From Terebella lapidaria (Eukaryota; Annelida; Polychaeta; Terebellida; Terebellidae), in the NCBI GenBank assembly GCA_949152475.1, contig OX424555.1, positions 22,338,868-22,402,867 of the forward strand: 64,000 bases of DNA. Direction: 5' to 3'. Below the pieces are notes generated by a model. It was not told where the DNA came from, did no database searches, and saw only the letters and a list, made by a program, of their open reading frames with translations. A program made the position numbers and the translations under genes. The first letter of the stretch is position 1, and each line of letters opens with the position of its first letter. Below, in pieces: positions 716-27,863 of this stretch.

Positions 716-900
716 CTTGGTGACGTGGTGGTTGAGACTGGCCTCGGTGGCGAAGCGCCGGTCACAGGTCGAGCAGCAGTAGGGTTTCTTGTCGGAGTTT
801 GCGGCCCGGGAGTCGTGGTTTTTGAGGTGCTGCTGCAGGTTGGCCAGCTGAGCGAAAGCCTTCGTACACGTCTCCACAGTACACTTGTACGGACGCTCAC
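716..900 (-). CDS. ZNF384/362-like: Distal alternative exon D2: fingers 4 and 5 (partial), continues off the window
   Basis: A 185-nt exon. The acceptor is cccaccag|GTGAGC at 900 and the donor is ACCAAG|gtatgt at 716/715. The phase-1 entry completes the glycine of TGERPYKC. Finger 4 has the same six-residue CxxxxC spacing as the proximal finger 4 and a very similar helix (QLANLQQH versus QLSNLQSH). A longer linker (DSRAANSDKK) follows. Finger 5 then begins CSTC, its first ligand histidine is present (…ASLNHH), and the exon stops at VTK in phase 0, one or two residues before the second histidine. The coding sequence must therefore continue in another exon, and none is visible in 1-715. Confidence 0.92.
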
Positions 901-1644
901 CTGGTGGGCAGTTTTCCAACAAATATCTCGAAATTATTAATTTCTATCATTTTCTTGAGATTTGGCAGCATTTGATGCAATATTTGAACAGGTTGAAAAT
1001 TGTAAAAAAAAAGTTGTCATATTGATGACTGTGCGATATATTTTTCTGAAGTACAGTACCTATTTCGCAATACCTCACCAAAATGCTAGCACGAGTAACC
1101 TGGCAACCTTAGCACGTGTTCGCCCAACTTCGCCTGACGTAGCATCGTGCGATCTGATACTAGCCTTGTGTATGTGAGCATCGCTCGATGCTAGCATTGC
1201 TTCTTGGCACTGTGGCACACTAAAAGCATTTTGCATTTCGCATTTTTTTGTGAAGGTCATTATAAGCTCGCATACGCTTGCAAATACATGGTCGAGTGGT
1301 TTATAGACAGTCTGTATCATGTAGATCGTATGGGCAAATGCAGTGTTTAAGTTCAGTTAATATTAAAGTCCGTATTTGCGTCCGAAATAAAGGATGCGCG
1401 CATCTGTGCGAGACAATGCTCGCCTGTTCAACCAAGACGATTGCCTGATGCGATGGCATTCCGCCCACTGGTCGTACCATGCGAGTTGATGCTAGCATCA
1501 AGTTGCGCGTAATCGCACGGCCTAGCATTTAGCATATAACATTCACATGGCTACGTGAGGTTTTGCGAAATTGCTACTGTAGGTGTTGATCGGAGAAGCT
1601 GAACCAACATTTTCAACACAATGTGGATGAAATAGTTAAAGAAC
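901..1644 (-). other. Intron between distal exons D1 and D2 (744 nt)
   Basis: The donor gttctt is at 1644 and the acceptor cccaccag ends at 901. Much of the intron (1081-1530) may be a degenerate inverted-repeat insertion, described separately. Confidence 0.85.
1081..1530. mobile_element. Possible degenerate inverted-repeat element in the D1-D2 intron
   Basis: The left end begins AAATGCTAGCACG and the right end, reverse-complemented, begins AAATGCTAGGCCG. The interior is rich in GCATCG/CGATGC words, unlike the flanks. The termini share only about ten bases, so chance is possible. Confidence 0.3.
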
Positions 1645-1867
1645 CTGTGTGTATGCGCTGGTGTTGCTGGACGTGGGACAGCTGTTTGAAGGACTTCTCG
1701 CAGTAGTGGCAGTGGAACTTTCTGATGTTGGTGTGGACGAGCGAGTGCTGAGCGAGCTGCTGGGACGTGGGGAACGACTTGAAGCACTTGGGACACTTGT
1801 GACCCTTCTCCTCCATCCCGTGAACGTCCTTCGAGTGCCGCGTCATCTCCGACTTGTTCGGAAACTC
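1645..1867 (-). CDS. ZNF384/362-like: Distal alternative exon D1: fingers 1b-3 of a second zinc-finger cassette
   Basis: A 223-nt exon. The acceptor is tttgttgcag|GAGTTT at 1867 and the donor is CACACAG|gttctt at 1645/1644. It starts in phase 0 inside a zinc finger (EFPNKSEMTRH-SKDV-H) with no CxxC of its own, so it needs an upstream exon ending CxxC plus two residues. Exon 27604-27863 is exactly that. Joined to it, the finger has C-x2-C-x12-H-x4-H spacing, and the next two fingers (CPKC…H-x3-H and CHYC…H-x3-H) fall at the same residue numbers as fingers 2 and 3 of the proximal exon. The exon ends in phase 1 within the TGERPYKC linker. It could instead belong to a separate tandem gene whose first exons I have missed between 2 and 20 kb, but I found none. 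Confidence 0.92.
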
Positions 1868-2274
1868 CTGCAACAAAACAAAAACACAAACATACAAAAT
1901 CAGTTTATACGTAGTGGGTCATTTTATTTCTTCAAGGCACTCACAGTTGTGTCCCAAAAGTCATGATTCTATGTTTTCACAATAAAATTTATTACTGATT
2001 GAAATTGTTGAGGTTAAATATTTTGTTGAAATATGAGGTCACAGAGATTTTCTAAATACATGTTTGCAGTAGAACAAAGATAGAATACATTTTGTCAGCA
2101 GGTGTACCTGTATTTGCTCCATGTCAAAGTTTGTTCATATTTTCTCGTGTTTCCGTGATGTACATGAAATTGTTACTGATAACAAATTTGCAAATTGATA
2201 GTTTAAACATAGATTCTACAATTTATGGCACATCAGTGGTTCATATATAAATATGTATAATTCAGATCAAACAA

Positions 2275-2393
2275 AATTAACCTATCCCAAATCGAGGTAT
2301 TCTGCAAAAACGGTGCTATTGGCCAAAGACAAGTTTTCTGACGTAATTTGTGAAACTCTGACAACTTTTGGGGGCATTTGGGATAGGTCAATT
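2275..2393. mobile_element. 119-bp inverted-repeat element (MITE-like)
   Basis: AATTAACCTATCCCAAAT at 2275-2292 is mirrored by ATTTGGGATAGGTCAATT at 2376-2393, giving 18-bp termini with one mismatch. The interior is about 83 bp and non-coding. No target duplication was seen. Confidence 0.5.
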
Positions 2394-5300
2394 GTCGATG
2401 AGAGATGATGATGTTGATGGACAAAACTGCAATGAGAATAACTTATCACACAAATTGATCACAGGGGTGACATAATCCTTAATGTTCAAGCATTGTATAC
2501 TTTATTTAATGGTTCTGATACCTTGGGATGTGATACATGTAATAATGTTCCTCACAAGAATTGAACCATAAGCAGATGGTACATGTAAACTTTCTGAAAA
2601 CTTGTTTGCGTACCTCCAATCATCCGACTCGTATTCATGTACATGTAGTTATATTTATTGACCATACAGTTAGATTTCAATGACAGATTTCAATGTATTG
2701 ATTTAGTAATTTGAGATCATCTATGTATTATAACCATGTACATGATTCCATTCCAGTTAATACTAATGACTTAGAAGATTAAAATCTCCATATAATATAT
2801 ATATCTTTTATTTTATATGATCAAAAATCATAGTGAAATATTGAGAAATGTGCTAGCACTGAAATTTAATAAATAATTCATACTCCATTCCCCAGGTGTC
2901 AGCAGTGATGCTAGGTTATGACATAATATCATATAACAGTGTCTACGACAGCTGGCAGGGGGCAGCACACATGTTGGTTATTACATAGTGTACGCAGGGC
3001 AGACGGTGACACCGCTCTAACGTAACGCGTTACCGAAGGCTACAGGTAACAAAAACCCCGCCGAAAAACATGTAGCGCCAACTGGAGCGTGAAAACAGGT
3101 CAGCAGACAGAAGCTATACAGCATATCACGGTCCTGGTAAACATCACTGTCTGACTCAACAGCGCTCTCCATCAATTTCAACATAAAAAAACTACAAAAA
3201 GTTTATAAATAGATACATGTACTCAAATGCATTATACTATCAAAAACTGAACAAATAAGTACCTTTCAGGTGCTTCAATTATGTACTCTGTCAACTGAGT
3301 AAATGTACTATGCTGTAATGCTTTTAAATCTATACGTGTGTACATATACTGTGAATTAGGTGACTAATTGAATATATTCTCATCTACTTTCATCAATAAT
3401 GTCTGGGTGATATGAACAGTTACTATCTGTATTAAAATGGTGATAGTCTTTCTTTTAAGCTCATCATGATTTATGTAGGTGGGTGTGTACTGTACGTGTT
3501 ACTTCATTCATTCAATATTAAATACATGCTTCAGTCTGTCTAACTGAAACAAGAACACCTGAGGTTTCACAAACATAATATCATAAAAATGCACTACCTC
3601 GCTTATTGCGTGGTACCGGTTTTTTCTTTACATGTATGAGAGGTACGAGTCTATCACACTATTTTATTGCCGTGATTTCCTGTTATTTATATCTTGTTTA
3701 TTAACTTGATTAAGAAACACCCCACATATCATGCACATAGATCATATGAATCACACCTGTGTTTTCAATAACATATTTCGTGAATGAATTAAACTTGATA
3801 TTTACACAAACAGAATATATTATGTTTAATGGTGTTTATAGATCACAATAGATACATTGATATTTGTGAGCTAGGCATCTAACATGATACACATGGTATG
3901 AGCCTAATTTTTTTCATAGATATTTGACGCATCTGTTCATAACGCTTATGGTATAACATAGGGTTACTGAATATGGAAGAATCATATATCATATATGCAC
4001 ATGGTAGTTTGAAAATATAATAGTTGAATTTCCAAGAACTGTCACATTAACTTGATGTATTTTAGTACTGTCACCCCTAACAGCTGGGCATCACACTATT
4101 CAGGGAATTGGTCAAAACAGCAAAACCTAATATTTGTTCCCACTCAAACATGTCAAATGAAAGCAGATACATGTACATGTATAGGTATTATCTTGTACAA
4201 GTTGCAACACACCAACAATTGGTGTGTTAATTGCAATCACAACACAAAAACCGGTGAAATCACCTGATGGCTATCATCCCCAATCAAGACTCACAATAAA
4301 AAATAATTTTCTTACCTGAGACAATCTTCTTGAAGTTGGCAAAATGTTCTCGTTTAAAAAAACAGGGGAATAATTTTTCTTACACATAGAAAATGATACA
4401 ACTGTCAAGACTACCTGTATTTTTCTTATTACTAGAGAGATGCATTGATTGGGCACTCGTTTTATGGAGGTGAAATAGAAAAAAAATAGCCATGAAAATG
4501 ATACTATCACCAAGCTGTTTGCCTGAAATAAAAAAAAAATACCAAAGTCCTTTGTCTAGTTGTCTAGAGCTATAATAAGAAATTGATAAGAAAACATCAG
4601 CTCAAAATTAGAAACAATTTTTGTAGTAACAAGATTTTTTTTTCTATATAAATCAAATCATTTTGAGAAATATTTTCTTAAAAAAGAGGACCTACAGTAC
4701 CAAAGCCTGGAAGTGACATGAAAAAAGAAAGAATCTGACTCGGTGGATTACTAATCTGTCCAAGCAAATTACTAACATTAAACAAAACAAATGTGTAAAA
4801 TCGCCAAGTCGATTAAGCAGATTTATAACATCTTAAGCTATGGTTTAATAAGTAATAGCCAGTGCTATTCGCCATAGAGAATTGGTACGTATTACGCCGT
4901 GGTGAATCACTTTTTTTTGGGTGTCATGTCATCAATACGCTTCCATAGAAAACCCATGAGACAACATCATACTTTAGAAGTTTATTTACATAAATGTTAG
5001 TAATTCACTCAGGCAGATTAGTAATCTTCATGATGGCTTTCAAATGAATTCAATCCCTGGGTATACGTAATTTTATTTCCTGTATTACAAGTTCTGATTG
5101 ATTCTCACAATTTGCGTAACTGTCACCCCCAGGAGCCCTTTCCCCCAGGCATGTCTCCAGGGCAACTACTGTAGGCAGTCTCCAGTTAGCGCAAAGCTCA
5201 GTCACATGTGTGCAGTTTCCCCTGACAACATGCAGACTTGCATAGGTTTTTTTTCTCCTCCCTTGAATATTTTGTAATGTGGAGATGCCAACTGTGCCAA

Positions 5301-8300
5301 ATGAGATGAACCTAGAAATCGGCAGCCTGTGCAGAGAAATCCGCACAAACAGAAAATCTCAGCAATAACATACACTGATGGAAAAAAAATTAATTGGCGT
5401 TTTTGAATTGGATTTTTTTATTGTGTGTGGGTAATGAAATGTTTTCCAAGATGAATTCTCAAGGTTATCTGATTTCTAATTGAATTCCTCCGCGCCATTT
5501 TTGCTACATGTATTAAATCCAAAAGTATATTAATATAGACAGCTTTATAATTTTGGTTCAGCATTGATTCACATGTATAGAATTTGCATTTATAAATAAC
5601 ACAATATCTTGTACAAACAGTAGGAAGATCTAGATAACTTTGCGGAACAATAAAGGACAATGGCCCATGTGCCGCACACACGGTCTCCTTCACGCAGACA
5701 GAGCACAAAGTCCATACAGTGTTATACAAATATGACAGGCATACATGTACATACACGGATCTCATATCAACAATATTGCTTTTTATCAGAACCAAATTGA
5801 GACCATGATGGCACTTCACAGTATTGAGAACACTACATTCAATCATTGGAAAATTGGCTACTCTATATGCCTGTAGTCATCCTGACATTGCAAGTGATTC
5901 AACATATTATAATAATGTTACTGCAATAATTTCATAGAAATAGAATATAACAGAAATAGAAACATGTACACTTCAACTGAAGAATTTCTATTGACCTAAA
6001 TACGATGTATGGTGTAATGCTGGTATATTTTTTTTTATCGAGAACCCAAATCAATCCCCCATCATTTTTGTTTTACCTCATCACTACATGTATATCTGCA
6101 CAACAAAACATGGTTGCGTTTGATGTCTTTATTTCTTTGGTCTAATTACTAGGAAAATGTTTTAAAAAGGAGGATTGATTTTATAAATATAAGGACAAAT
6201 CCTAATTTGGAGATATAACTTAAAAAATATTTTGGCTGGATCAATAATTTTGACTGAATGATCAGTTGTCAGATGAGTAGACTTTTTTTCTCGACTGGAC
6301 GAGCATATTCACGGGCGTTTTTAGCAAGAATAACAAAATACATGTACCTCTGATAACTAAGAAATGGCAGCCGGTACAGCCCAGTTAGACACCACACGTC
6401 TTGTGCTAATTAATGTGGACAATTAAGTGATAAAGAATATTACTCCAATATTTACCATTGCTAATGCCTTATCTCACAGTAGGAGCCAGCCAACACCGTG
6501 TCATGTACTGCACAAAAAACATTGATCAGTGCACATAATTTCATTGTACAAACCATGAATAATTCATTGTTCTTCACAAATCAACACAAGTTTGCTGTTT
6601 CAAATGTGTCCTGGTTTTGTGCCATGGTGGTTCGCCCTCCATATTTGCATTTATAAAAACAAATACAAGAAGCACTTGAGAGATGCTACAATATTCAGAA
6701 AGAAGTCATAATTTAAATTTTAATAAGTGTATTATCTCAAATAGTCTCAAAATACTTTTATTTTACTTTTATCAAATTATCTCAAAATACTTTTATTTTT
6801 TTACCATCATATGGTCAAGAAAATTATGGCATACATGTATAATCTTACGCATGCATGCAAATGGTATAAAGTTTCATATTTCTAATAATAAATATTGAAA
6901 TCAATGACATGAATTTTTTTTTAATTTCATAATATGCCAGTAAAAACTAGCTATTTATTTGAGATAGGAGTTCACGTTTTTGATATTTTCCCCCCAAGGA
7001 ACTGTGTTACTCAAGAGGTGGGTCAATCAATCATCAGACAAACCAAGCAATACAGCATGCACGTATATAGATCTGTATGCTCTCAACTCCCGGCAGACCT
7101 GCTTCTAAACCAGACAGCCTCCATTATGTAACCCAGTAATAAGTCCAAGCGCGTCTTCTCCCTGTACAGCCCAGCATCGCCCTGCCCTGCCCTCGCACGC
7201 TCGTAACGGAGCTTCTCACAGGTTTAATCTATTTTATGTGGTGCGAGTGTTCTTCAAGTTTTTTATTTTATTTTATTTTTTTAGCGAAGTTCTGCTCCTG
7301 TTATGTAACTGGTTTACCCGTAATAATGTAATCTGCACTGAAGTGAAGTAACTATATCGTGAGAGAAATACATCTGCAGACATTAACAATTCATACACAC
7401 TGACCTGGAAGGAGGATGAGGGGGGGGGGGGGGGTCAATGAAGACCAACATCTCACTATCATTAGCAAAAATATGTTGACTTTTATTTGAATTTACCTGT
7501 GAGACCAGAATAGATTATGAAAGAAAAGTATACATGTATAGTGGAGATCTAGCATGACGAATGCTGCCAAAAATACTTAAATTGGCAACAAGTCAAATGT
7601 TTGAAAGAATTTTATTCATGATGGAGAGAGAACCAGGAAGCAGAATAGGAAGTGGTCATATTTTTTTGAACATAAAAACAAATGATGTGTATCATAGGAG
7701 TTGTTTGTCACTGTTTAAAGTAGCATCAATGGTCTTGACCGTCCTACTCAATTGCCATCAGATCCTGTAACTGGTGATTTATGTCAACAACATTTTCATA
7801 GTTGGACCAAAACATAGTACCAAGGGTGCTGTACGTGTACCTTTTAAAACGGCAATGTATGATTCGTTCTTTCACAGTATAAATCCTAAAAACTACATAA
7901 TAGGACTCCAATAGGTTACTGGACCACGGCTTCAAATTGAAACCTTATCATGAATCCAATGAAGTGTCAAAATCATGAAACATCAGTTCAAGGGCCGCCA
8001 AAGTCCAAAAAAGGTACATGTAGTTTTCGCCAAGAATGGCTGTTTTGACCTTTCAATGTCATTCCCATTCGAATGAGCCAATATCTAAGCTCTATTTTTG
8101 AGCATTCTAGAAGTAAATATACATCTAGAGCTCCATTATAATGGAAAAAGCCACTTAAGTCCAAGAAACTTTTTTTCAAAGGCAAATTTTTTTCATTTTT
8201 ACCACAGGGGAATGGATCCAAACACATAGTGACTTGATTTCCGACGAATTTTTTTTTGCCTACCGACTCCTCGGTAAGTCAGAATGGCTGCCACATGCAG

Positions 8301-8588
8301 ATCAATGATTCAGGGGCAACCGAATTAAAACACATCATATAGGTAGGTACACATGGCCGTCCAATCCAAAACTATACATTTTTCATCGAAAGCAGCCTCT
8401 ATTTTGAGAAAAAAACAACAAACAACAAACTGATTCCGTGAAAAAAGGAAAACAAATCGAAGGTAATCAACATAAGAGATACAATACTCTAATTTCCAAA
8501 AAAAAACTTCCGACAGGACAACCCATGTTGATGAAAGGACGAGGGACAATGTCGAACGAAAACCCATGACTACGTAGCTTCTCCACCA

Positions 8589-8888
8589 ATACTGTATTGG
8601 TCCTAATAGTGGCACGTGCCCTAATAGTAGAGCTCCCCCTTCTTTTCCCAAAAAATATTCGATTTTTGTAACCTTGTAACTGACTTAACATCTTTCTAAT
8701 AAGATCTTGAAGTCTTCCAATCCACATAATTATGTTATTTGAATCATAATAAAGGGGATTGAAGGCTATAGGTGTATTATTCAGTGATTTTCTTAATTTT
8801 GACCCTAAGTTTGAAGTCATTTTTGCGCACGCTGCTGCAGGAGGTCTTGCTTTGGCTCGCCGTGCTACTATTAGGACCAATACGGTAT
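8589..8888. mobile_element. MITE copy A (about 300 bp)
   Basis: The termini share GTATTGGTCCTAATAG in inverted orientation, and a GGCACGTGCC palindrome lies just inside the left end. The interior is clearly similar to 59170-59450, including words such as GGATTGAAGGCTATAGG, and to the right end of 11125-11432. No coding capacity. Confidence 0.85.
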
Positions 8889-10001
8889 GCACTGGAAATG
8901 AGCCGGCATATAAGCACAGCTGATGCTGTAACAGGACTGGTTCTAATCATGATTACTCAGCGTGCTGTGCTCGTATTCAGGTCAAAATAAAAGCACCCTG
9001 TACATGGCTATTGGCAGAGTACATGTATGCAATGTGACATTTGATGAAAGTGATTACATTTTATATTGGGAATATGGTACCATTTGCATGGAATACACAC
9101 ACAATTATTCATCAGTTTATTTTTGTTCCGTCGTAACATACGAGTTCTCACTGACCAGGAGTTTTGCGTCGTCCTGCATGTCACATACAATTATATCACC
9201 ATTACTGCTTCAACATTGTCCAAAAACCAACTTCATCTGTAAGCACTAACTAGTGTACCAGCATTTATTGCATAAAGGTCTACCATCCGAAATATATACC
9301 TAAATGTATTTCTGGTGCCACTCCTCTGATGTTGCATGAAAATAGCCAGTAAATTGAAATTATATATCTGATGAAAGACTATGCCTTCCCCCAGGAAATA
9401 ATGTTGACACCATCCCTCTCTGTACACTCGTAGTCTCTTTATTACCTTCAACATTAATACCAGTAACACTGTGGTACTACAGAAGTGTAGCCCCAGTACA
9501 ATGGAATATCACGATTTAAAAACAACCGTAGTATCAGATAACTGCCCTCAAACCAGATTGTTATTATGATTACATCTCGTATTCAGCTGTAGAGTCTTTA
9601 TTCTCAAGAAAATTTAATTATTGCAATGCTATGAAGTTCTTGCTCTGTAATATAATGTACAGTAAAATACTAGAGGCTACTTTGAAAGATTCATTTTGAG
9701 CTCCTGTGGCATAACAAATCTTCAAATTAAAATCCCAGTGGTATAAGAGCAAATTCTGTGTCCAGCAATCACCCAAAGGTCCCGAGAACATGGCTACATA
9801 CGACAGGACTGTGTAACCATGGTTACATGCTGCAGGATCCTGAAAAGACCACAATAGATGTCGATCTACAACTTCGTGACTAGCTCTTTAGTTACAAAGG
9901 TATCACATTCTGATCAAAATTCAAAAATGACCAAAATTCACCCATAAAAGGTGTGCAGGAGAAAAGTTTCTAATGGCGTGATGGTTAAGCCCTTCTCCAC
10001 C

Positions 10002-10163
10002 TGCACCATCTTGCACATGACGGCCCAAGTATCGTATCCTGCGCCTTTCTCTATATTCAATAAGGATTTAAAAGGTGAGAGACGGATTAAATGGCATTCA
10101 TTTAGTGGCCGAGTAGTATTGAGGCGCAGCGTATGATATTTGGGCCCACATGGCCGAGGTGCA
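10002..10163. mobile_element. 162-bp inverted-repeat element
   Basis: The left arm contains GGCCCAAGTATCGTATCCTG followed by CGCCT. The reverse complement of the right arm reads GGCCCAAATATCATACGCTG followed by CGCCT. The arms extend imperfectly to about 45 bp around a loop of about 75 bp. It is MITE-like, with no second copy recognised. Confidence 0.5.
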
Positions 10164-11124
10164 TCACATAGGCCTACAAATGCATTTTTTCTGGGAACAT
10201 GACTTTTTACTCGGTTTGACCAAGTTTCTCGACTTGCCTATATTTACCAAACGCTAGTGAATTTCTACATGTATGAAAGCAAACAGGTTTAGTTTTTCAA
10301 CTTTATAACAGAGATCAATAGATGTATGTCAATTTATGTCAAGACCCATTACAATTCATCAATCAATGTTTCCACATATATTCAATCTAACCTATTTTGA
10401 AATCCTCCCCATGGCAAACCTCACGCCGGAAAAACTGTTTATTTGCTTTTCTTTTGCGCCATGAAAAAAAATATCGCGCCACAAGAGGGCAAAAAAAACC
10501 CCAACCCACGAGCACTTGATTGAAGACCAAAAAAATGTTGGCTAAAAAACAGGACAAGAACTTGGCAAACCATGCGCGGTATGCATACAAGTTTTATTGA
10601 GTTTTGGGTTGTTTCATACCACTGTTCTCTTCAGGTTGGATTTTCGTGGTGTTGAAATTTTACACTACTAGTAACACCGCTTCTCTTCCCTCCTCCCACT
10701 ACACAGCACATCCCTGTAACACTTGTACCATACATCACATCCCTTCTCAAATGTATAATAATCAAATACGGACAGACGCTATGTGACCAGCAATCCTTAT
10801 TAATTAAAGAAGTGAAGTGTAATTTGGATGCAATGCAATCCATGTATCATGACTATCACAGCACAAATTGTGCAGGACGGAAATGGAAAAAGTTGTACTG
10901 TAGTACATGTACTAATATTTTCTGACCACAATCATATTTTCACTCCTCAGAGACAGAGTGCTAATTTACTTAAGTCCTGAACACAAAACTCTCGTGTGTT
11001 AACCCACCATTATAAACAGTAATATTTTCTGAATGTCTTGTATGATGCCATTTTTATCTGAACTAGGAACACATCAACCAAAGTAAACGATTAGGTATTG
11101 GAATAAAAAGGTCGTGAAGCTGGT

Positions 11125-11432
11125 ATACTGTATTGGTCCGAACAGAAATGCAGTTCTCTAATGCAAGACTTTCAATATTAGCACGTGAGAAAATAGGTGA
11201 AATTTGAGACATCTTCAAGAAGACATTGATATAATACATGTACATATACAGTGTTCATTATGTGCTAATTTGGAGCAATTAGCCTAAATATGCTGTACAA
11301 ATTAATATGAGACCCTACTATAATAAAATAAGGACATTTATGAAGTGAAGAACGTGGCATTTTTTCTACAGAAAGGGGGGGGGGGGAATTCTTCTTTTAG
11401 GGCACGTGCTGCTATTAGGACCATTACGTTAT
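11125..11432. mobile_element. Degraded MITE copy C
   Basis: It begins ATACTGTATTGGTCC and ends with CTATTAGGACC and an ATTACGTTAT tail. The right end with GGGCACGTG matches the left end of copy A in reverse orientation. The middle no longer matches, and a poly-G run sits inside. Confidence 0.6.
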
Positions 11433-12999
11433 GCATTGTGAGTCACTGAGTATATATGTAGCTATCTTTAGGTCTGGTGCATAATTCAAATAAAGAATAG
11501 AATTGAACAGAAAACAATTTGTCGTTCAGCTATATTGAGACATGTGTAGACTGTATTGTATTAATGTTGATCAGTTTTTTGTGTCAATGTGTGTGCATCC
11601 ATGAGACGAAAACACATGAACAGTACAAGACGGTATATATAGATCTGTCTTTATTCACATAAAAGCTTGGAGCTAACAGCAAGCGACCAGACACTTACAG
11701 AAATGTTAGATATAGCTAGACAAAAAATGGGAAAAACCCAATAACAACAGATGACAATTGGAGTTCGCATTCTATCTACGTTAATTAGACGGGTCTCAAC
11801 CTTTCCCAGGTCACCACCATTAACCAATACACAAACTCTCCACGTAACACTCATGTCTTCTATATGTAAATATATATATATATGTATGGACATTTGCGGC
11901 TACAGAATTGACACAGGACACATTTAATCTTTAAGATATATCAATATGTATAGATGTACATCTCCCATTCGGAAAACAAAATGTTTTGTATAAACTGCAT
12001 CACAATACCATCTAAGGTATATCGCTGCACCATGTGCTTTTTGTTTTTAACAATATACAAGATAATTTCCAAGTGTGAGAAGATCAATAAAATTGTAAAA
12101 CCCAAAAGTGTAAAAGTCTACATCAGGAACCAGCCAATATGCAAGCATTCCATGCTTTATGAACCTAGGAGCTGGTCAGGTGGGACCGGTTCAGTGACCA
12201 CCTCGAGGACCACCCTGTCTGTCACACCACCCACACCAACAGGTGTCTGCACTCTAGCTTTTTTTAGCCATGAAGCTTCCGAGGCGAAACATGGTGGACA
12301 TGTAAGATGCATACGTATGTTACACGAGTATGCGTGTGATGATGAGATGTGGTGGTACATGAGTTGTGGTGTGACAGACAAGTCAGATACAGGGGCTTGT
12401 GATTGAGTCAACAACTGGGACAATTACCTTGTGAATATTACTCTGAAAACCATACACCTCCCACCCCAAGGAACCAAACAGATAGGAGTTCCATATGGTC
12501 TCTCCCCCCACAACACGACAGGAGTCAATGGTCAGTTGGTCAAGGTCATACATGAACAAGGTTAAAGACATAACGCTATAATCTACATCAATGAGTAATG
12601 CCCAAGGTGAACTCGAGTGGAAATTTCACAATTTCCAAATCAAGGACTTGGTCGGTTCAGTGCCACGTGAGAAGCTAATTGCTGACTTATCATTGTTCGC
12701 GTGTGTCCTGACAGCTCTACAATGGTGTGTCGAAGTGAGGGATCAAATATCCACGCAGCTGGCAGAACAATAGCATTACGAAAGGTCAAGTGTCGCCTTT
12801 GCTTCTGCAATCAAATCTCAGCAGAATCTGCCACCCAGTTGAACACATGATATGTCCATGTTCTGTAGAACACATGGCGTGGTGTAGCGCTACCCCAAGA
12901 CCCAGGGTCTCATACCCCTGGGAGCCATCTGATGACTTGAGGCCCTAACAAGCTGTGCTCAGAACTGACCGTGATTGTACACACATTATAGACGTGCCA

Positions 13000-13990: not shown

Positions 13991-14198
13991 CTTTAATTCC
14001 CTAAATTCTATCTGGTGTACCTCATAGCCGCCAACAAAAAAACAGGCGAAGTTCATAGTTCTATCTCAGCTAGCTGAATAATTTTGACATACAAATGCAA
14101 AAAGTAGGTTAGTCCTGATGGCATAATTAATATTGTGAACCTAAAATCTATATCTCTACTGGGGTAAAACTTTTCCTATCTGCTACGTTCGCCTTCAA

Positions 14199-17200: not shown

Positions 17201-20200
17201 ATTTAAATATTAGCATTTTAGACCCACTTTAAAATGTAATGTAAAAAAAGATCTAGCACTGAGGGTCCAACCTAAAATATGCTACAACACATGAATAACA
17301 AACATTTGAAATGTATATATATAGTACTGTAAAATACCTCAAAGGAACAAATTTAGTGCCAATACAAAAAGTAATTGGCATATTTCCAATAGTTCTGAAA
17401 GACCAGATTTCAATAGTTGCTATGTGATATTAAGTGACGTACAATACATTCTTCTTTTTTTTTGCAAGAAAGTGCAAGATTTATAGATCTGCAGAATACA
17501 TGACTGGTCTCGATTTAAAATCTGACCAACACAGTCAAAACACATATTTCTTGAACATAACCATGAATGACATAAATATAATGTTTGGATATTAGCTCAT
17601 ATATCTATCTGCTTTTTTTTTGTTGGAATTTCTCTCTCATGAGATGGCCAATTCATAACTTAAAAATTTTACATACTAAAGCATGTTTTAGAAAGTTCCA
17701 ATTTTGAATAATTATGTGGTGATAAAACCCTGTTAAAACAGCTTCCCCCAACTGCAGGCTACTAAATAAACTTGCCTGATCAAAAAAGGGACCATTCAGC
17801 AGTGTAGTCTTACTGCAGGAACTGATGCTATTATTCTTTCAAATAGTTTGAAAACTTTCTGGGAGAATATTCAATATTGTATCAGAACACACTAGAGCAC
17901 TAATTGGTGTGCTGATGGGGTTAGTTAAGCACCTGTAGGTCTGTCTGTATTATGTGGCGACACCCTTGGGATATTAGAGACAGTTGTACTGTAAACTGTA
18001 CCAAACAGCAGATAAACTTTGAACAATGCCTACACATATCAACTAAAGCCGTCTAGTAACAGGTCAAGTCAGAAAAAAACACAACACAAACAAACAAACA
18101 AACGAATAAACAAGCAAGCATGCAGTTATAGAATAAGACAATAATTTGACGTAATCAAGAAAAAGCTGCCTGAATCGAGTCTGGCACAGTTGCAACCTGA
18201 AATATTAACCCATAATTTATGTTTCCTTTTCAAGTGAGAAATACTATTGCACCTGCTGAGCCACTAGTAAGGTCTACAAACTGAAATGGACTGCTGATTT
18301 TGTCACCAGGACTGCAAACATGCAAAAAAAGCAGTATGGCACAGAATTCCTGATTCACAGTTTCAATGCATACAAATTTCACCGCGGTAGACTCCTGTTC
18401 CATTCTCAATGCCCATAGAGTTACCATAACACACCAGAGAAGTATGAGAGCATGTCATTATACCCTTGAACAAATTGTCTGTGGCAAGCTCGATTCAGCT
18501 AACTCTTTTATCATTCAAGATACAAAAACACATTCTTCTAATCTGAGAAAAGACAGTATACGGCATTTCATGCCCTGCTGACACAAATTCACACTCAATA
18601 TGTCCGTAACAACAATAACCAGGATAACAGTCACAACTCTATGGAAACATTTACAGGAATTATATGTAACAACTAGTAACTTCATTTATATGTACATGTA
18701 TCTATATATATTTATACATAAAACACACTTGTACTGAAAATGCACTTGTATACGTAACTTTAAAAGATTTATGCGTGAATATATCAATTAGTATAATCCA
18801 TGAATACAACTAACACAAAGAAAGTCAAGAAACAGATACAAGTGAATCTGAACACACAACTTTTCACATGAAGACCAAAACCAAACCATTAGCTATGTAT
18901 ACAAAGTATGACACTAACAAACTACAGTTATTTCGTATTTACATAACAGGCCCAGTTTTGAACCGAGCACTGTCCAATTCTTCCTCAGTGACACCACAAT
19001 TATTCAATGCCCACACAAACCTTCAAATGACATCTACATCTTTCTCAGCAAGTACTCTCACTAGTAGTCAATGGCCGACACAAGACACTGATGTAAAAAA
19101 CACTTTACATGTTGATGATGTTACCATGGATACCCTGCATCACGAAAGGACGACATTTTACCCCGGCCAATTCTAGTTCACATATTCCAACCATTCCCAA
19201 TGTTTTTTCTGAGGGTAGTCTTCTCACAGCTCAGTGAATTTATATCCTGTCGGAATTTCGGAAGGCTACCAACTCAAGATAACAAAAACTGTTGGAATCA
19301 CAGCTCTTGCGTCAAAATTTGTAACTAATTTTGCCCAATAGTATGTACCATGATCACAGTTCTGAAATCCAAACTACCTATAGGAGGTTTTCTCTCATGC
19401 AACATGGTCCATCAACAATACAGTTAATTCCCTAATGAATATTCAACAGGTAGACGGCATTCTCTTCAAGAAATGATGACACAGACGAATGACACTCGTA
19501 CAATGGTGTGAAATCCTGTCATGACCGATACAATACATCCGCAGTCATCAAACCTCATGCTGGGTGGGTACCACTGGTAGTGTGGGTCTAAATATTGAGC
19601 TCAGTGCATATGACAACATAATGTGTTTTGGAAACACCACAAACAGTACATTGTATTATACATAGGTACACACGTTATAATGATAATTGTATAATCCAAC
19701 ATTATATGCCTTCTGGTAGTACTTTATAAGTTGTAAACCTACCAGACTTGTATACAAGGTGATCTGCAGGTAGGCTACATTATCTATGCTATGTGAAGAT
19801 AACAGGCAATACCTCGCCCATATAGCTGCAAGAAGTGCTATGCCAGGCCAGATTAATGCGGTTACTCAGTAACAAAGGCTACAGCAGGGTACAGAACCAA
19901 CAGAATTTACTCCAGTCCCCTAAACTAGCTTGTTTATAGTGATGCCACTTGTAACATATAATTGTTCAGCTAAGCGTATATGCCCTGTGCGTCATCCTTA
20001 GTCACACACATAGTCATTTACAAACCAAAATACAAAAAATCTCTAAACAAATTTGATATTGTTTTCGAAAGACACTTTAAACACAAACTAAACTTTTTGG
20101 TTGTGTAGGGGTTAACACTACAAATATGTACAAGACAAGAGCACAGTGACGGAAGGAAAGATTACAGTATCATATAGGTATTATTATTTGATACATATCA

Positions 20201-20207
20201 TGGGACA

Positions 20208-20213
20208 TTTATT
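20208..20213 (-). terminator. Candidate polyadenylation signal (AATAAA)
   Basis: The minus strand reads AATAAA about 195 nt after the stop codon of the proximal terminal exon. Other AATAAA words occur further downstream, so the true 3' end may be later. Confidence 0.35.
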
Positions 20214-20407
20214 TTTTTACCCATTTTAAATGTAACTCTATGGCAGAATTAGTATTTTACAGCTTTTTTTACACTCAGTAAGTGATATACAATGATCCTA
20301 TATAACTGTAGATCGCAGGCTAACAAGTATCGGCATTTGCAGTGTTAGTGAGACAAACTCCCTGTGTCACAGGCACAGGCTGGGTGTGGTAGGTGGGGAG
20401 ACCATGC

Positions 20408-21457
20408 TCAGAAGTTGTCCTTGTGTCCCGGTGAGCTTGGCTCACTCTTGGGGAACACCGGGTGTGAACTGGAGAAGTTCTTGATCTGCTGGAGACTGAT
20501 CAGCGAGTTGGCGATCATGTCCTCGCGGGACATGCCCATGCGGGAGTCCATGGCGTCTCGTTTGGGCAGCGAGATAGGGTCGAAGGGGAAGTAGCTGCGA
20601 GAGGCCGACGACGGCGAGATGTGAGACAGCGGCGAGTTCAGGGTGTTGTTGGGCAGGCGTGGCGACGGGAACGGGAACGAAGTCGAAGGCACTGAACTGT
20701 TCATAAGACTAGGACTGGGGAACTGGTGAGCAAGGGGCATGAAAGCCGAGGCGCCGGTGGGGCCGGGTTTGCTGCTGTTGGGAAGGCCGCCCGTGTTCAG
20801 CCCATCCAGGAGAGCCGGCTTGACCTCCTGTGTCTGGTCACTGCTCAGCTGGTGGCTCAGGCCTAGTGGAGGCATGCCGCCCCCCGAGCCTCCCATTGAG
20901 TTGACCACCTTGTTGGCCAGCGGGTTGCGGTGGTGTCCCAGCATACCCTGGGGCGAGTACGGGTCGCCAGAGTGCTTGGTCATGTGGCGGGCCAGGTAGG
21001 TCTCCTGTGTGTAGGCCTTGCCACAGATACGACAGATGTGGGTTTTGATGTGCTTGGTCTCCGAGTGTTTGGGGATGTGCTCGCGCAGGCTCTGCTCGTC
21101 GGCGAAGCACTTGTAGCAGGAGTTGCAGCGGTAGGGCTTGTCGGTCATGTGGGAGCGGGAGTGGGACTGGAGGTTGGATAGCTGTGAGAAGGCCTTGCCA
21201 CAACCAGGGTGGGCACACTTGTAGGGCTTCTCTCCAGTGTGTGTGCGGATGTGCTGCTGCAGGTGACAGAGCTGGGTGAAGCGTCGCTCGCAGATCTGAC
21301 ACTTGTACGGCTTGATGCCCGAGTGTATCCGGGCATGTTGCGACAGATAGGATGAGTTGGCAAAGCACTTGTTGCACGTAGGACATTTATAGGGTTTAGG
21401 GTCCTGCTTGTGGACTTGTTGACTGTGCATCAGAAGGTCCGACTTGGACTCAAATAT
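20408..21457 (-). CDS. ZNF384/362-like: Proximal terminal exon: fingers 1b-6 and Ser/Pro-rich C-terminus
   Basis: The minus-strand acceptor tctttccag|ATATTT at 21457 begins a phase-0 open frame of 349 codons ending TGA at 20408. An in-frame ATG exists upstream at 21655, but those 66 codons are intronic and look non-coding. Predicted finger ligands are: F1 C122/C125/H138/H143 (His pair from this exon), F2 C152/C155/H168/H172, F3 C180/C183/H196/H200, F4 C208/C213/H226/H230, F5 C238/C241/H254/H258 and F6 C269/C272/H285/H289. TGEKPYKC and similar linkers join several fingers. Fingers 3 and 4 carry Gln/His/Asn contact residues of the kind expected for A-rich DNA, and vertebrate ZNF384 is known to favour A-tracts. 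The last 187 residues are Ser/Pro/Gly-rich and presumably disordered, ending near a FPKSEPSSPG motif. This is a DNA-binding nuclear protein; whether it activates or represses cannot be read from the sequence. Confidence 0.96.
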   Translation of the reverse strand: MFESKSDLLMHSQQVHKQDPKPYKCPTCNKCFANSSYLSQHARIHSGIKPYKCQICERRFTQLCHLQQHIRTHTGEKPYKCAHPGCGKAFSQLSNLQSHSRSHMTDKPYRCNSCYKCFADEQSLREHIPKHSETKHIKTHICRICGKAYTQETYLARHMTKHSGDPYSPQGMLGHHRNPLANKVVNSMGGSGGGMPPLGLSHQLSSDQTQEVKPALLDGLNTGGLPNSSKPGPTGASAFMPLAHQFPSPSLMNSSVPSTSFPFPSPRLPNNTLNSPLSHISPSSASRSYFPFDPISLPKRDAMDSRMGMSREDMIANSLISLQQIKNFSSSHPVFPKSEPSSPGHKDNF

Positions 21458-23450
21458 CTGGAAAGATAAGAAGCAGAAAGGAGCTCTGTATTCGCTTAGA
21501 TCTTCTCTTTGCATTTTGGTCCATCTTTTTGTAATTTCACGGTTCTCCATCAGAAAAATATATTCTCTGTCAGGTCCTAGAACTCCTACCATTATTAATC
21601 TCAAAATTTTGCAAAATGAGATGAATGCCATTGACAATATGAAATTGTTGGGCATGTTTGTCTATAAAAGTTATTTATAATAACTTTTCAAGTGGATAAA
21701 AGAAACTGATTAATGCAGAAAAAAGGCAAAATTCCGCTTTTACTCTTACTTTGTTGCCTGTTCGTTATACGAAAAATGGATTACCAACAAGATTTTGCAT
21801 TGGTATTCATGCAGCAAAACAGCCATCAATTTGGCACTTCAATATCTGGATAAGGTTTCATCATTGAATTTAGGGTTTTCTGCATTGTTTCATCAGTAAA
21901 AGTGGTGAAATTTGATTTGCCAAATATTGAAGCCAGTCCAAGCGACAGGTCTCTAATTTAATGCCTCCTTTCTGCTTGATCTTTCTTCTTTCCACATATC
22001 AACACAATGATGCAAGTCATGCCATTGGTGCACCCAACTCTCAACTTAACTAGAGCCAAATTCTTATCCAATCAATCGTTTAGTTACAAGAACATTATGG
22101 TGGAGTCCTAGGTCACAGAGACGAAATATTTTACCATCTTTTGCACTTCTTTTCCTCACCAATGGTGAAAAACAGCTCAAATCGGGTGAAAAAATGTTGA
22201 TGATTATGCTATGTTTTCTTTACAGAACAACATAATGCTTGGAAGCATAGTATGGTTGTTGTGTGTTCAGGTAAGTTTCAGCTTGATTTTTGTTCTTTGT
22301 GTGTTTTTCATGAGTTGGTATTGGACAATGCACACAAAGGGATGGTCTCAGATTTCTTTTCATAGACACTTCCGGCAATGCAAATGATCGTATGAACTTT
22401 CCAATATCACGTAATTTGTGCGGTTAGAAAAACACCTGATGCCCTGAGCTACTTGGGAGATATGTGACCAGTCAATTAGACAACAAGTTACCAAATGACA
22501 CCAGCACCTAGAGCGTCATAGGACCAAAGTTCAGGTCCAGGTAAGAGGGTAATTGTCATTAAAAGTCGGTCCTGGACATACCGAACAAATAACCTTCGAG
22601 ACCATGAAGACAGTAATCAGACCTTTGGAGGCAGCCTCAGCATTGCCAGATGCCTGACTTGTGATCTGCGAGAGCTATAGCTGCCAGCCTGGTATCGGTA
22701 ACAAGAGAAAGGACCACAGGGCGATAATTCTGCTAAGTGTTGAGTGGTGACACCGTGGTGCCACATTACCTCCTCACAGCCCTCCTGCGATGTCTGACCT
22801 GGACACTCGTTGATTCATTATTTTCTACTCAAACATACGGTCCTCGATTACCGAGGTCAAATGTCAACATTACGCGAGTGACCGCGCCATGCGAGAACCA
22901 TCCCTGGACACGTATCAGCCACGCACCAGACACTAGACTGCCACCCTGGCTGGCTCAGCCCTCGATCAGCTCATGTAATCTTACCTCTTCGAGGTTCAAT
23001 CCACCAAGGATTAGGACAATTTATTAAAGAATTGCAAAGTTAAGACGAATATCAAGGGGTGTCATTGACTCAAGTCTGATTAAATTTCAGTACATCATGG
23101 TCCTGCTTCCTTCAGTAAAATCACACCTCATACAAAAGTCAGCTGTCTGCAAACGGCTGTAGAACATGAAACGACCTGGAAATTATTTTTTTAAAATTAC
23201 GATAAGATCATTTGGTGGCCGTGTAAAATGTGAAATGAAGATTGGATGATGAGCAACTATTAGAACTGTAGGCTCTGGAACCAGGAAGTTGAACAGGACA
23301 CCAGCAGTGAGTCTGTCCCTTCCTAGATCAGACATTATCTACTGACAACAGGACACAGGTCCACATCCTACCAAATATATCAGAAAAAGCTCTGTTTGTG
23401 TCATAAGTATGGTCCTCTATTTTTTTCAATACTATAACGTATCCTATCAC

Positions 23451-23454
23451 AAAG
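23451..23454. repeat. Possible target-site duplication (AAAG), left copy
   Basis: AAAG directly precedes the left inverted terminus, and the same word follows the right terminus at 24373-24376. Four bases can match by chance. Confidence 0.35.
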
Positions 23455-24372
23455 GTACGGAAGCTCATATTCGCCACATAGAGGAGCACAAATTTTTTTT
23501 AGAGCGTTATAACGCTCTAATTACAGTGTAATAACGCTGTAATACAGCGTTATAACGCTCTAATTTACAGCGTTATAACGCTCTAATTTAGAGCGTTATT
23601 ACGCTCTAAATTAAACCGTTCACCTTCCTAGCATATTTCCATTATCGTGATTTGTAATAAACATATCTAGATCAGAATAATTTTGAGATTTCCCTACAAA
23701 TGATTGAGCTGATGAACTAGCAGGTCCGATAATGTCTCTGGCAGTGTAAATTAGAGCGTTATAACGCTGTAATTTACAGCGTAATTACGCTCTAATTACA
23801 GCGTAATAACGCTCTAATTTACAGCGTAATTACGCTCTAATACAGCGTTATAACGCTCTATTACAGCGTTATAACGCTCTAATTTATAGCGTAATTACGC
23901 TTTAATTTACAGCGTAATTACGCTCTAATTACAGCGTTATTACGCTGTAATTTAGGCGTTATTACGCTGTAAATTACAGCGTTATAACGCTCTAATTACA
24001 GCGTAATAACGCTGTAATTACAGCGTTATAACGCTCTAATACAGCGTAATAACGCTGTAATTAGAGCGTAATTACGCTGTAAATTACAGCGTTATAACGC
24101 TGTAATTAGAGCGTAATTACGCTGTAATTACAGCGTTATTACGCTGTATTAGAGCGTTATAACGCTGTAATTACAGCGTTATTACGCTGTAATTAGAGCG
24201 TTATAACGCTGTAATTTACAGCGTAATAACGCCTAAATTACAGCGTAATAACGCTGTAATTAGAGCGTAATTACGCTGTAAATTAAAGCGTAATTACGCT
24301 ATAAATTAGAGCGTTATAACGCTGTAAAGAAAAAAGTGCATTCCTCCACCTCGCGAATATGAGCCACCGTAC
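23455..24372. mobile_element. Foldback-like element with terminal inverted repeats and palindromic interior
   Basis: The left end reads GTACGGaaGCTCATATTCGC. The right end, reverse-complemented, reads GTACGGtgGCTCATATTCGC, and a GAGGA word and a T-rich tract follow at both ends. AAAG lies directly outside each end (23451-23454 and 24373-24376), a possible 4-bp target duplication. The interior (23501-23612 and 23744-24326) consists of roughly 30 copies of a 14-bp dyad, AGCGTWATWACGCT, joined by short TAATT linkers. About 130 bp of unrelated sequence interrupts it. No open reading frame is present, so it would be non-autonomous. I do not recognise the superfamily. Confidence 0.75.
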
Positions 24373-24376
24373 AAAG
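24373..24376. repeat. Possible target-site duplication (AAAG), right copy
   Basis: AAAG directly follows the right inverted terminus (…CCGTAC). It pairs with 23451-23454. Confidence 0.35.
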
Positions 24377-24549
24377 GCACTATGTTTTGCAAGGGCTCTG
24401 TTCTAAGTAAAGTAGTTTCAGTTTGTATTGTGCACATACCAGTATTGTCGTGATGTATCACTTCTGGGACTCAGTTCATAAGTATTTTCAGGACGACATG
24501 TCACATAATACATCTGGGGTGTGATTTATTGTTTTGCGATTTCATGTCA

Positions 24550-27500
24550 CTGTGACCAGGTTGTTGTTGTGACCTGAGGTTACTGTAGAGTTCAGGTTGT
24601 TGTTGTTGTGACCTGAGGTTACTGTAGAGTTCAGGTTGTTGTTGTTGTGACCTGAGGTTATTGTAGAGTTCAGGTTGTTGTGACCCGAGGTTACTGTAGA
24701 GTTCAGGCTGTTGTTGTGACCTGAGGTTACTGTAGAGTTCAGGTTGTTGTTGTGACCTGAGGTTACTGTAGAGTTCAGGTTGTTGTTGTTGTGACCTGAG
24801 GTTACTGTATAGTTCAGGTTGTTGTGACCTGAGGTTACTGTAGAGTTCAGGTTGTTGTTGTGACCTGAGGTTACTGTAGAGTTCTGGTTGTTGTTGTTGT
24901 GACCTGAGGTTATTGTAGAGTTCAGGTTGTTGTTGTGACCCGAGGTTATTGTAGAGTTCAGGTTGTTGTTGTGACCTGAGGTTACTGTAGAGTTCAGGTT
25001 GTTGTTGTTGTGACCTGAGGTTACTGTAGAGTTCAGGTTGTTGTTGTTGTGACCTGAGGTTACTGTAGAGTTCAGGTTGTTGTTGTGACCTGAGGTTACT
25101 GTAGAGTTCAGGTTGTTGTTGTGACCTGAGGTTGCTGTAGAGTTCAGGTTGTTGTTGTGACCTGAGGTTACTGTAGAGTTCAGGTTGTTGTTGTTGTGAC
25201 CTGAGGTTACTGTAGAGTTCAGGTTGTTGTTGTGACCTGAGGTTATTGTAGAGTTCAGGTTGTTGTTGTGACCTGAGGTTACTGTAGAGTTCAGGTTGTT
25301 GTTGTGACCTGAGGTTACTGTAGAGTTCTGGTTGTTGTTGTTGTGACCTGAGGTTACTGTAGAGTCCAGGTTGTTGTTGTGACCTGAGGTTACTGTAGAG
25401 TTCAGGTTGTTGTTGTTGTGACCTGAGGTTACTGTAGAGTTCAGATTGTTGTTGTTGTGACCTGAGGTTACTGTAGAGTTCAGGTCGCTGTTGTGACCTG
25501 AGGTTATTGTAGAGTTCAGGTTGTTGTTGTTGTGACCTGAGGTTACTGTAGAGTTCAGGTTGTTGTTGTGACCTGAGGTTACTGTAGAGTTCAGGTTGTT
25601 GTTGTTGTGACCTGAGGTTACTGTAGAGTTAAGGTTGTTGTTGTGACCTGAGGTTACTGTAGAGTTCAGGTTGTTGTTGTTGTGACCTGAGGTTACTGTA
25701 GAGTTCAGGTTGTTGTTGTTGTGACCTGAGGTTACTGTAGAGTTCAGGTTGTTGTTGTGACCTGAGGTTACTGTAGAATTCAGGTTGTTGTTGTTGTGAC
25801 CTGAGGTTACTGTAGAGTTCAGGTTGTTGTTGTTGTGACCTGAGGTTACTGTAGAGTTCAGGTTGTTGTTGTTGTGACCTGAGGTTACTGTAGAGTTCAG
25901 GTTGTTGTTGTTGTGACCTGAGGTTACTGTAGAGTTCAGGTTGTTGTTGTGACCTGAGGTTACTGTAGAGTTGAGGTTGTTGTGACCTGAGGTTACTGTA
26001 GAGTTCAGGTTGTTGTTGTGACCTGAGGTTACTGTAGAGTTGAGGTTGTTGTTGTTGTGACCTGAGGTTACTGTAGAGTTCAGGTTGTTGTTGTGACCTG
26101 AGGTTACTGTAGAGTTGAGGTTGTTGTTGTTGTGACCTGAGGTTACTGTAGAGTTCAGGTTGTTGTTGTGACCTGAGGTTACTGTAGAGTTGAGGTTGTT
26201 GTTGTTGTGACCTGAGGTTACTGTAGAGTTCAGGTTGTTGTTGTGACCTGAGGTTACTGTAGAGTTCAGGTTGTTGTTGTTGTGACCTGAGGTTACTGTA
26301 GAGTTCAGGTTGTTGTTGTGACCTGAGGTTACTGTAGAGTTCAGGTTGTTGTTGTTGTGACCTGAGGTTACTGTAGAGTTCAGGTTGTTGTTGAGACCTG
26401 AGGTTACTGTAGAGTTCAGGTTGTTGTTGTTGTGACCTGAGGTTACTGTAGAGTTCAGGTTGTTGTTGTTGTGACCTGAGGTTACTGTAGAGTTCAGGTT
26501 GTTGTTGTTGTGACCTGAGGTTACTGTAGAGTTCAGGTTGTTGTTGTTGTGACCTGAGGTTACTGTAGAGTTCAGGTTGTTGTTGTGACCTGAGGTTACT
26601 GTAGAGTTCAGGTTGTTGTTGTTGTGACCTGAGGTTACTGTAGAGTTCAGGTTGTTGTTGTTGTGACCTGAGGTTACTGTAGAGTTCAGGTTGTTGTTGA
26701 GACCTGAGGTTACTGTAGAGTTCAGGTTGTTGTTGTGACCTGAGGTTACTGTAGAGTTCAGGTTGTTGTTGTGACCTGAGGTTATTGTAGAGTTCAGGTT
26801 GTTGTTGTTGTGACCTGAGGTTACTGTAGAGTTCAGGTTGTTGTGACCTGAGGTTATTGTAGAGTTCAGGTTGTTGTTGTTGTGACCTGAGGTTACTGTA
26901 GAGTTCAGGTTGTTGTTGTGACCTGAGGTTATTGTAGAGTTCAGGTTGTTGTTGTTGTGACCTGAGGTTACTGTAGAGTTCAGGTTGTTGTTGTGACCTG
27001 AGGTTACTGTAGAGTTCAGGTTGTTGTTGTTGTGACCTGAGGTTACTGTAGAGTTCAGGTTGTTGTTGTTGTGACCTGATGTTACTGTAGAGTTCAGGTT
27101 GTTGTTGTTGTGACCTGAGGTGACTGTAGAGTTCAGGTTGTTGTTGTTGTGACCTGAGGTGACTGTAGAGTTCAGGTTGTTGTTGAGACCTGAGGTTACT
27201 GTAGAGTTCAGGTTGTTGTTGTGACCTGAGGTTACTGTAGAGTTCAGGTTGTTGTTGTTGTGACCTGAGGTTACTGTAGAGTTCAGGTTGTTGTTGTGAC
27301 CTGAGGTTACTGTAGAGTTCAGGTTGTTGTTGTGACCTGAGGTTACTGTAGAGTTCAGGTTGTTGTTGTTGTGACCTGAGGTTACTGTAGAGTTCAGGTT
27401 GTTGTTGTGACCTGAGGTTACTGTAGAGTTCAGGTTGTTGTTGTTGTGACCTGAGGTTACTGTAGAGTTCAGGTTGTTGTTGTGACCTGAGGTTACTGTA

Positions 27501-27575
27501 GAGTTCAGGTTGTTGTTGTGACCTGAGGTTAATGTAGAGTTCAGGTTGTTGTTGTGATTTAAGGTTGCTGTGGTT
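24550..27575. repeat. 3-kb minisatellite, about 80 units of 33/36/39 bp
   Basis: Head-to-tail units read, on the minus strand, CAC(AAC)2-4 CTG AAC TCT ACA GTA ACC TCA GGT. They differ mainly in the number of AAC triplets, so every length change is a multiple of three. One minus-strand frame stays open for 1018 codons, starting at an ATG five nt past the exon-3 donor and translating as HNN(N)(N)LNSTVTSG units. A second minus-strand frame also stays open inside the array, and no unrelated coding sequence is attached, so translation is doubtful. Each unit holds ACCTGA and TCAGGT separated by 14 nt, so the transcript could form a 6-bp hairpin per unit. Most units hold one AGGTCA. Confidence 0.97.
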
Positions 27576-27603
27576 TTCGGTTGAGTGGTGTATGGCATCT
27601 TAC

Positions 27604-27863
27604 CTGGTCACACATACGGCAGTGGTACGTTTTGATGGTCCTAGGTTTCATGGGCTGTGGTACGACCAGGGGGCTGGTGGTGGGGTTGCTGACCGGAGTT
27701 GGGGTGGGGGTGCCTGGGATGCCCCCACCCATGGGCCCTCCTCCTATGTCCCCAGGGTGACGTGGTGGCGCGGGCGTCGACGGCTGTGAGTGAGGCTGGG
27801 ACTGAAATAGGTGCCCTCCGTGACCGCTGTGCGCCATGGGCGGCGGTGGCCGTGTCATTGGCC
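27604..27863 (-). CDS. ZNF384/362-like: Exon 3: Pro/Gly-rich segment plus first half of zinc finger 1 (shared by both cassettes)
   Basis: A 260-nt exon. The acceptor is ttgttctag|GG at 27863 and the donor is GACCAG|gtaaga at 27604/27603. It enters in phase 1 and leaves in phase 0. The translation (residues 42-127 of the predicted protein) is rich in Pro, Gly, His and Met and then ends KTYHCRMCDQ. The two cysteines (C122, C125) are the CxxC knuckle of zinc finger 1, and the finger is cut after the second residue past the knuckle. Human ZNF384 has a very similar YRCRMC at the same place. The exon therefore needs a following exon supplying ten residues, then H-x4-H. Two such exons exist on this strand: 20408-21457 and 1645-1867. 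Its donor is a strong consensus and sits about 30 nt from the edge of a large minisatellite. Confidence 0.93.

Follow-up and report, generated by a model that had tools for sequence, protein, structure and literature searches.

How many DNA-binding domains can a single zinc-finger gene offer to one N-terminus? The question is raised by a 64,000-nucleotide stretch of the genome of the annelid Terebella lapidaria (the window; assembly GCA_949152475.1, contig OX424555.1, forward-strand positions 22,338,868 to 22,402,867), for which a sequence-only reading had proposed that a common exon, broken off within a C2H2 zinc finger, can be spliced to either of two zinc-finger cassettes that each supply the missing half. 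The locus is very probably a single ZNF384/lin-29/rotund-family gene that has alternative last exons, and the two-cassette proposal held in that both cassettes are present and had to be refined in that the distal one has two ends of its own, which would give the gene three possible 3' ends, termed here proximal, D3a and D3b. ZNF384/ZNF362, lin-29, rotund/squeeze and dati are treated as one family (ZFAM4) in PMC2889900 and PMC4188565; these and the other papers cited below were available in part, and what is taken from them holds for those parts.

All exons of the gene model lie on the minus strand, and positions are those of the window unless a contig is named. The common exon, exon A (27604..27863), encodes a low-complexity stretch, an LVVPQP motif and the first half of finger 1 (CRMCDQ), directly 3' of which, inside the finger, lies a phase-0 donor (CAG|GTAAGA). 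The proximal cassette is a single terminal exon (20408..21457; acceptor TTTCCAG|ATA at 21457) of 349 codons that holds the rest of finger 1, fingers 2-6 and a C-terminal tail before its stop at 20408, and an AATAAA, a word match only, stands 195 bases past this stop (20208..20213). The distal cassette opens with exon D1 (1645..1867; acceptor TTGCAG|GAG at 1867), which supplies the rest of finger 1 and fingers 2-3 and ends in phase 1, and continues with exon D2 (716..900; donor AAG|GTATGT), which encodes finger 4 and the greater part of finger 5 and ends in phase 0 (HHVTK|). The distal frames are open, the Cys and His of fingers 1-5 are intact, and joining CRMCDQ to the exon at either 21457 or 1867 restores the C-x2-C-x12-H-x4-H spacing of finger 1. 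The phase-0 end of exon A, the two phase-0 acceptors with the missing half-finger in exact spacing, the terminal position of the proximal exon and the continuation of the distal cassette through D2 and beyond had all been claimed beforehand and were confirmed. Family features are the LVVPQP motif and the CxxC ahead of the split finger, the FANSSYLSQH of finger 2 and the six proximal fingers, which agree with the conserved five-to-six-finger array; exon A reads LVVPQPMKP...CRMCDQ, and an LVVPQP-type motif with a CxxC half-finger recurs in 65 of the 239 proteins that we collected.

We scanned 104 kb (the window plus 40 kb downstream) for an AG followed by the half-finger pattern in phase 0, and obtained nine places on the minus strand and none on the plus strand, compared to 10 places in total across 20 Markov sequences of 104-kb length. 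A pyrimidine-rich tract precedes only two of the nine, 21457 (13 of 15) and 1867 (12 of 15); the remaining seven have 5 to 9 pyrimidines of 15 and are fingers within the same exons. A Protein Data Bank search gave multi-finger proteins and nothing specific among the best 60 of 209 matches.

To follow the distal cassette, 40 kb beyond the window was fetched. Two exons downstream of D2 each start in phase 0 with the missing His of finger 5, one reading VH (D3a) and the other LH (D3b). D3a begins within the window (1..94; TTTGTCAG|GTC CAT), closing finger 5 with its last His, and extends 763 bases to the left of the window (C1:22338104-22338961), encoding 285 residues that add a tail but no finger; 27 of 42 residues at its end match the Paralvinella model P0079, which also has VH after HHVTK. 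D3b (C1:22333426-22334814, L009:4559-5947) lies wholly outside the window, beginning 4053 bases to the left, and its 462 residues comprise the finger 5 His, two canonical fingers, a third finger whose spacing is widened, and a long tail. It matches protein P0032, whose junction reads VTKLH, at 59% over 138 residues and protein P0081 at 34% over 136 residues.

The same switch is annotated in a ribbon worm. Taxonomy was looked up for Tubulanus polymorphus (Nemertea), Paralvinella (Annelida) and Liolophura; Pomacea, Biomphalaria, Candidula and Haliotis are gastropods, Owenia is an annelid and Leptotrombidium a mite. A query in which the Tubulanus isoform N-terminus was fused to the window's proximal exon retrieved isoform X4 of the Tubulanus gene LOC141908629, and X4 and isoform X2 (P0010) share 192 identical residues that end in CKMCDQ, past which X2 reads KFENKSDVFNHGKETHG (distal type) and X4 reads MFESKSDLLVHSHQVHK (proximal type). 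The switch thus falls at the same residue as in Terebella and differs in that finger 4 is doubled in the distal form; as an annotation it supports the alternative use of the cassettes that the sequence-only reading had claimed. On the basis that the ribbon worm annotation has the same switch, the switch looks old and in use rather than accidental. The doubled stretch of X2 (residues ~267-345) starts where the D1-D2 phase-1 boundary would lie, which suggests a doubled D2-like exon, and the tail behind the fingers of the Tubulanus distal form has no clear match to D3a or D3b.

A second protein, P0081, carries the join from the common to the distal part in one frame: this 594-residue open frame in a 1860-base contig has CRMCDQ followed by EFENKSDMQRHAKDVH, fingers 2-4 and ARPHDLICQVC, a layout of A, D1, part of D2 (without finger 5) and the start of D3b. 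P0081 reads as transcript-derived, because introns would part these segments in a genome built like that of Terebella. A search with the narrow junction region yielded one candidate, which was already known. The splice position itself also leaves traces in proximal-type models. Among the 19 such models that lack CxxCxx directly before the exon edge, three (chiton P0137, abalone P0152 and mite P0140) have short in-frame inserts just after CxxCxQ and 11 start with apparent intron sequence read through to a Q at the exon edge; given these inserts and intron readings at the same edge in other animals, the intron within finger 1 looks old. As a separate observation, gastropod isoforms vary the number of proximal fingers (Pomacea P0122, P0125, P0126, P0127, P0129 and P0133; Biomphalaria P0124 and P0134), and the six Pomacea lengths (765, 705, 675, 675, 675 and 645) are spaced at multiples of 30 residues, which looks like alternative inclusion of single-finger exons.

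From this exon anatomy we propose that the common 5' part would stop inside finger 1 and that the transcript would then take one of two routes, splicing to the terminal proximal exon, which adds six fingers and a stop, or skipping of that exon and splicing to D1-D2, which carry a diverged version of the same DNA-binding stretch. As the proximal exon is terminal and has its own stop, the choice would lie between using it and skipping to D1. D2, stopping inside finger 5, could in turn be joined to D3a, which would complete the finger and add none, or to D3b, which would complete it and add two or three more, a choice of the same kind as that between the proximal exon and D1. Every choice would rebuild an intact finger and one N-terminus would receive one of three ends; these most probably arise as alternative last exons, in the manner of Drosophila lola. 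We infer that Terebella makes all three ends and regulates the choice among them, with splicing to the proximal exon set against the use of its poly-A site.

To place exon A among possible half-finger donors, we scanned the minus strand of the window for C-x2-C plus two residues followed by a phase-0 GT, and found nine places (61633, 60857, 59894, 56925, 46780, 41831, 32710, 28816 and 27604), only two of which, exon A (27604) and 46780 (CDICRF), have a donor that fits at five or more of six bases. None of the nine lies between 1.9 and 20.4 kb, where a separate half-finger exon would, by the sequence-only reading, have refuted the proposal by making the distal exons an independent gene, and such an exon serving D1 is ruled out in these terms. 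Likewise rejected is a further copy of exon A, since only one place in the 761.6-Mb genome matches it, in a search that scored the best candidates. The single match and the lack of rival donors in this interval argue for one gene, as had been claimed. That the distal exons nevertheless form a separate gene with a promoter and N-terminus of its own, their phase fit to exon A being left over from a duplication, is quite improbable to us. What speaks for it are P0032 (716 residues), in which other residues precede the distal half-finger (SHPIV|EFPTKS), and Candidula P0080 and P0114, in which finger 1 is missing and a long unrelated N-terminus is accompanied by many extra fingers; the empty donor interval and the common half-finger of Tubulanus X2 and P0081 speak against it, as does the failure of the N-terminal portions of P0032 (best E 4.6), P0080 (5.2) and P0114 (3.0) to match the window convincingly. 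Both arrangements might also coexist, A being joined to D1 in some cells while a second promoter drives D1 or D2 without an intact finger 1. This mixed arrangement would accommodate the P0032 and Candidula models beside Tubulanus X2 and P0081; we consider it unlikely, as no candidate first exon for a second promoter was found in the window and the P0032 and Candidula models may be wrong. Several further observations weigh against one gene with alternative ends. Tubulanus X2 and X4 are automated predictions, and the Paralvinella P0079 model begins inside finger 1. The distal signature (LVHTxIRK or LVHTxVRK) occurs in only six of the 239 proteins, two of which (P0010 and P0081) have the common half-finger and four of which do not, and molluscs other than Candidula, as well as Lingula, are without it among the matches listed. 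This absence is weak evidence, because only the best 120 of 882 and the best 120 of 2651 matches of the two large protein searches were listed, and some lineages may have a second promoter for the distal part. The D1 donor at 1645 is weak (CAG|GTTCTT), D3a is backed by one annelid gene model and an open frame, and the AATAAA or ATTAAA found at most 200 bases past each of the three stops is a common word and a match only. Finally, the N-terminal part of the gene model is incomplete: the likely first coding exon (MADRPDIYMWENME, 40472..40513, donor GAG|GTAAGT), identified by tblastn matches to Owenia fusiformis P0174 (MAERHDMYMWEGMEA; E 0.080 and 0.007) and Lineus P0131 (E 2.5), ends in phase 0 and the exon A acceptor (27863) requires phase 1, a clash which implies that a further exon, or another exon A acceptor, is absent from the model.

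If the locus is a single gene, where did its second set of fingers come from? The proximal and distal cassettes are identical at 50 of 103 residues without gaps, a recount that gives exactly the figure counted earlier by hand, and at 62 of 135 by BLASTP (E 9e-48). Queried with the distal cassette, the genome returned the distal exons themselves first; the proximal exon came next (118.7 bits, 48%), and other finger genes followed at 80 bits or less. The proximal query, by contrast, put other finger genes on top (118.8 bits down) and did not list the distal exons, scored separately, among its matches. Against the proximal array, the joined D1 and D2 score 119.3 bits by phmmer, compared with at most 109.6 for 10 other finger loci, and tie with these loci by BLASTP (121 versus 121). 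By similarity alone, therefore, the proximal array is not clearly closer to the distal cassette than to other finger genes, and a relationship of reciprocal best matches was not borne out by the proximal-query search. The proximal-query scores speak for a capture of the distal cassette from another finger gene, with a chance fit to the split finger, an origin that we nonetheless regard as very improbable in view of the clear lead of the proximal exon in the distal search, of the identical spacing and split of finger 1 in both cassettes, and of a family pattern in fingers 3-4 (QLxHxQQH, then C-x4-C and QLxNLQ). This pattern, defined after inspecting the family, is found in both cassettes and in 98 of the 239 collected proteins (including 62 of the 65 that bear the LVVPQP tail); the 10 other genomic finger loci compared all lack it. 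Among distal-type proteins it is present in P0032 and P0081 and not matched in P0010 (which reads QISH), P0079, P0080 and P0114. The earlier claim of a duplication inside the gene thus gains from the distal search and the finger 3-4 pattern and finds no clear lead in the reverse search, and duplication within the gene appears the likeliest origin. That the distal cassette is no more than a relic in decay or a product of faulty annotation is hardly credible to us: a weak D1 donor and few database copies would fit a relic, but its frames and zinc ligands are intact, it is 96% identical over 97 columns to Paralvinella P0079, and the distal type recurs in a nemertean and in the P0081 contig.

A tree was built of 26 rows, comprising 24 chosen from the 239 proteins and the window's two cassettes, with no outgroup or other finger genes. 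Candidula P0114 and the vertebrate proteins P0037, P0113 and P0179 were left out, the Tubulanus distal row was trimmed of one doubled finger and Candidula P0080 of its extra fingers, and the P0079 gene model is without part of fingers 3-4; a 23-row tree drops P0079, P0080 and P0081 as gappy or long rows. The six distal rows form one group (100/100, 26 rows), as do three distal rows in the smaller tree (100/99, 23 rows), and the window's distal cassette pairs with P0079. In the 26-row tree the window's proximal row is placed among 17 other protostome proximal-type rows. The distal group stands beside all canonical rows and not inside the canonical arrays, a placement obtained without an outgroup, and a test of distal and spiralian proximal rows as one clade gave p 0.013 (26 rows) and 0.045 (23 rows), values against a spiralian origin of the duplication, with long-branch warnings and again no outgroup. 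We read the distal array as a family gene's cassette that has diverged. The annelid-like and the nemertean lineage each have both cassettes, and we claim no firmer age. No protein named dati is among the matches listed, with no test aimed at a descent of arthropod dati from the distal type.

C2H2 fingers contact DNA through positions -1, 2, 3 and 6, and at these positions finger 3 is alike in the proximal and distal cassettes (QCHQ and QSHQ) and finger 4 is close (QSNS and QANQ), whereas the contact residues of fingers 1, 2 and 5 differ. For a schistosome member of the family, the top motif in DNA affinity purification sequencing (DAP-seq) is AAAAAA (PMC12965309). The likeness of the finger 3-4 contacts together with this motif leads us to predict an A-rich core common to the forms and different flanks, and the forms would bind different sites. 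Family members have roles in the development of fly appendages and eyes and in schistosome sexual maturation (PMC12965309), and in the juvenile-to-adult transition in nematodes (PMC7105380). A wider, tentative and rather doubtful extension is that the ancient finger 1 intron has served lophotrochozoans as a socket for alternative DNA-binding domains, nested a second time at finger 5, and that the gene would thereby yield three regulators that have an A-rich core in common but differ in flanking specificity and in partners, perhaps switched in developmental time like lin-29. If a switch of DNA-binding domain is conserved, the targets of one isoform need not apply to another in lophotrochozoans, and the locus would offer a natural test of how splicing changes specificity while each product keeps an intact finger.

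The surroundings of the gene are rich in repeats. A tandem array of ~80 copies of a ~39-base unit (24560-27555) begins 49 bases past the exon A donor; its unit includes the splice-like words CTACAG and CAGGT, it holds two open frames of up to 1021 and 656 codons, and it might affect which downstream exon is chosen. Other arrays lie at 62099-64000 (37-base unit, ~51 copies, reaching the window end) and at 23498-24327 (AT-rich units of 22-45 bases), and a tRNA scan found no tRNA genes. Elsewhere in the genome, 15 equal-scoring C2H2 matches, each in a 210-codon open frame (C1:23.07-23.12 Mb, C1:93.46 Mb, C7:17.96-18.01 Mb, C11:0.79-0.85 Mb and C194), may represent a mobile element or an array of recent origin, and large C2H2 gene clusters occupy C5:1.1-2.8 Mb and 8.0-8.2 Mb.

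How does this arrangement compare with known systems? In the isoforms described for rotund/roughened eye (PMC2889900), lin-29a/b (PMC7105380) and schistosome ZNF362.1/.2 (PMC12965309), the N-termini differ and the fingers are shared. As far as the available parts of these papers go, the Terebella gene is unlike rotund, lin-29 and schistosome znf362 in that the N-terminal part would be shared and the fingers would differ. In the titles and abstract openings of the open-licence literature, we found no account of alternative DNA-binding cassettes in the ZNF384/lin-29/rotund family. Alternative zinc-finger ends are made by Drosophila broad and tramtrack, which are BTB genes outside this family. 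In Drosophila lola, a common 5' part encoding a BTB domain is joined to alternative 3' exons, most of them with zinc fingers, to give at least 20 isoforms, and trans-splicing takes part (PMC1947980). Judged by its genomic anatomy and the Tubulanus isoforms, the Terebella gene would resemble lola in pairing common 5' exons with alternative 3' zinc-finger exons. Unlike lola as described in the parts of that paper at hand, it has two ends that are related arrays, and its joint falls inside a finger. Alternative finger ends as such are thus known from lola, and what appears to be new in the Terebella gene is that the cassettes are related, that the joint lies within a finger and that such a joint would be used twice.

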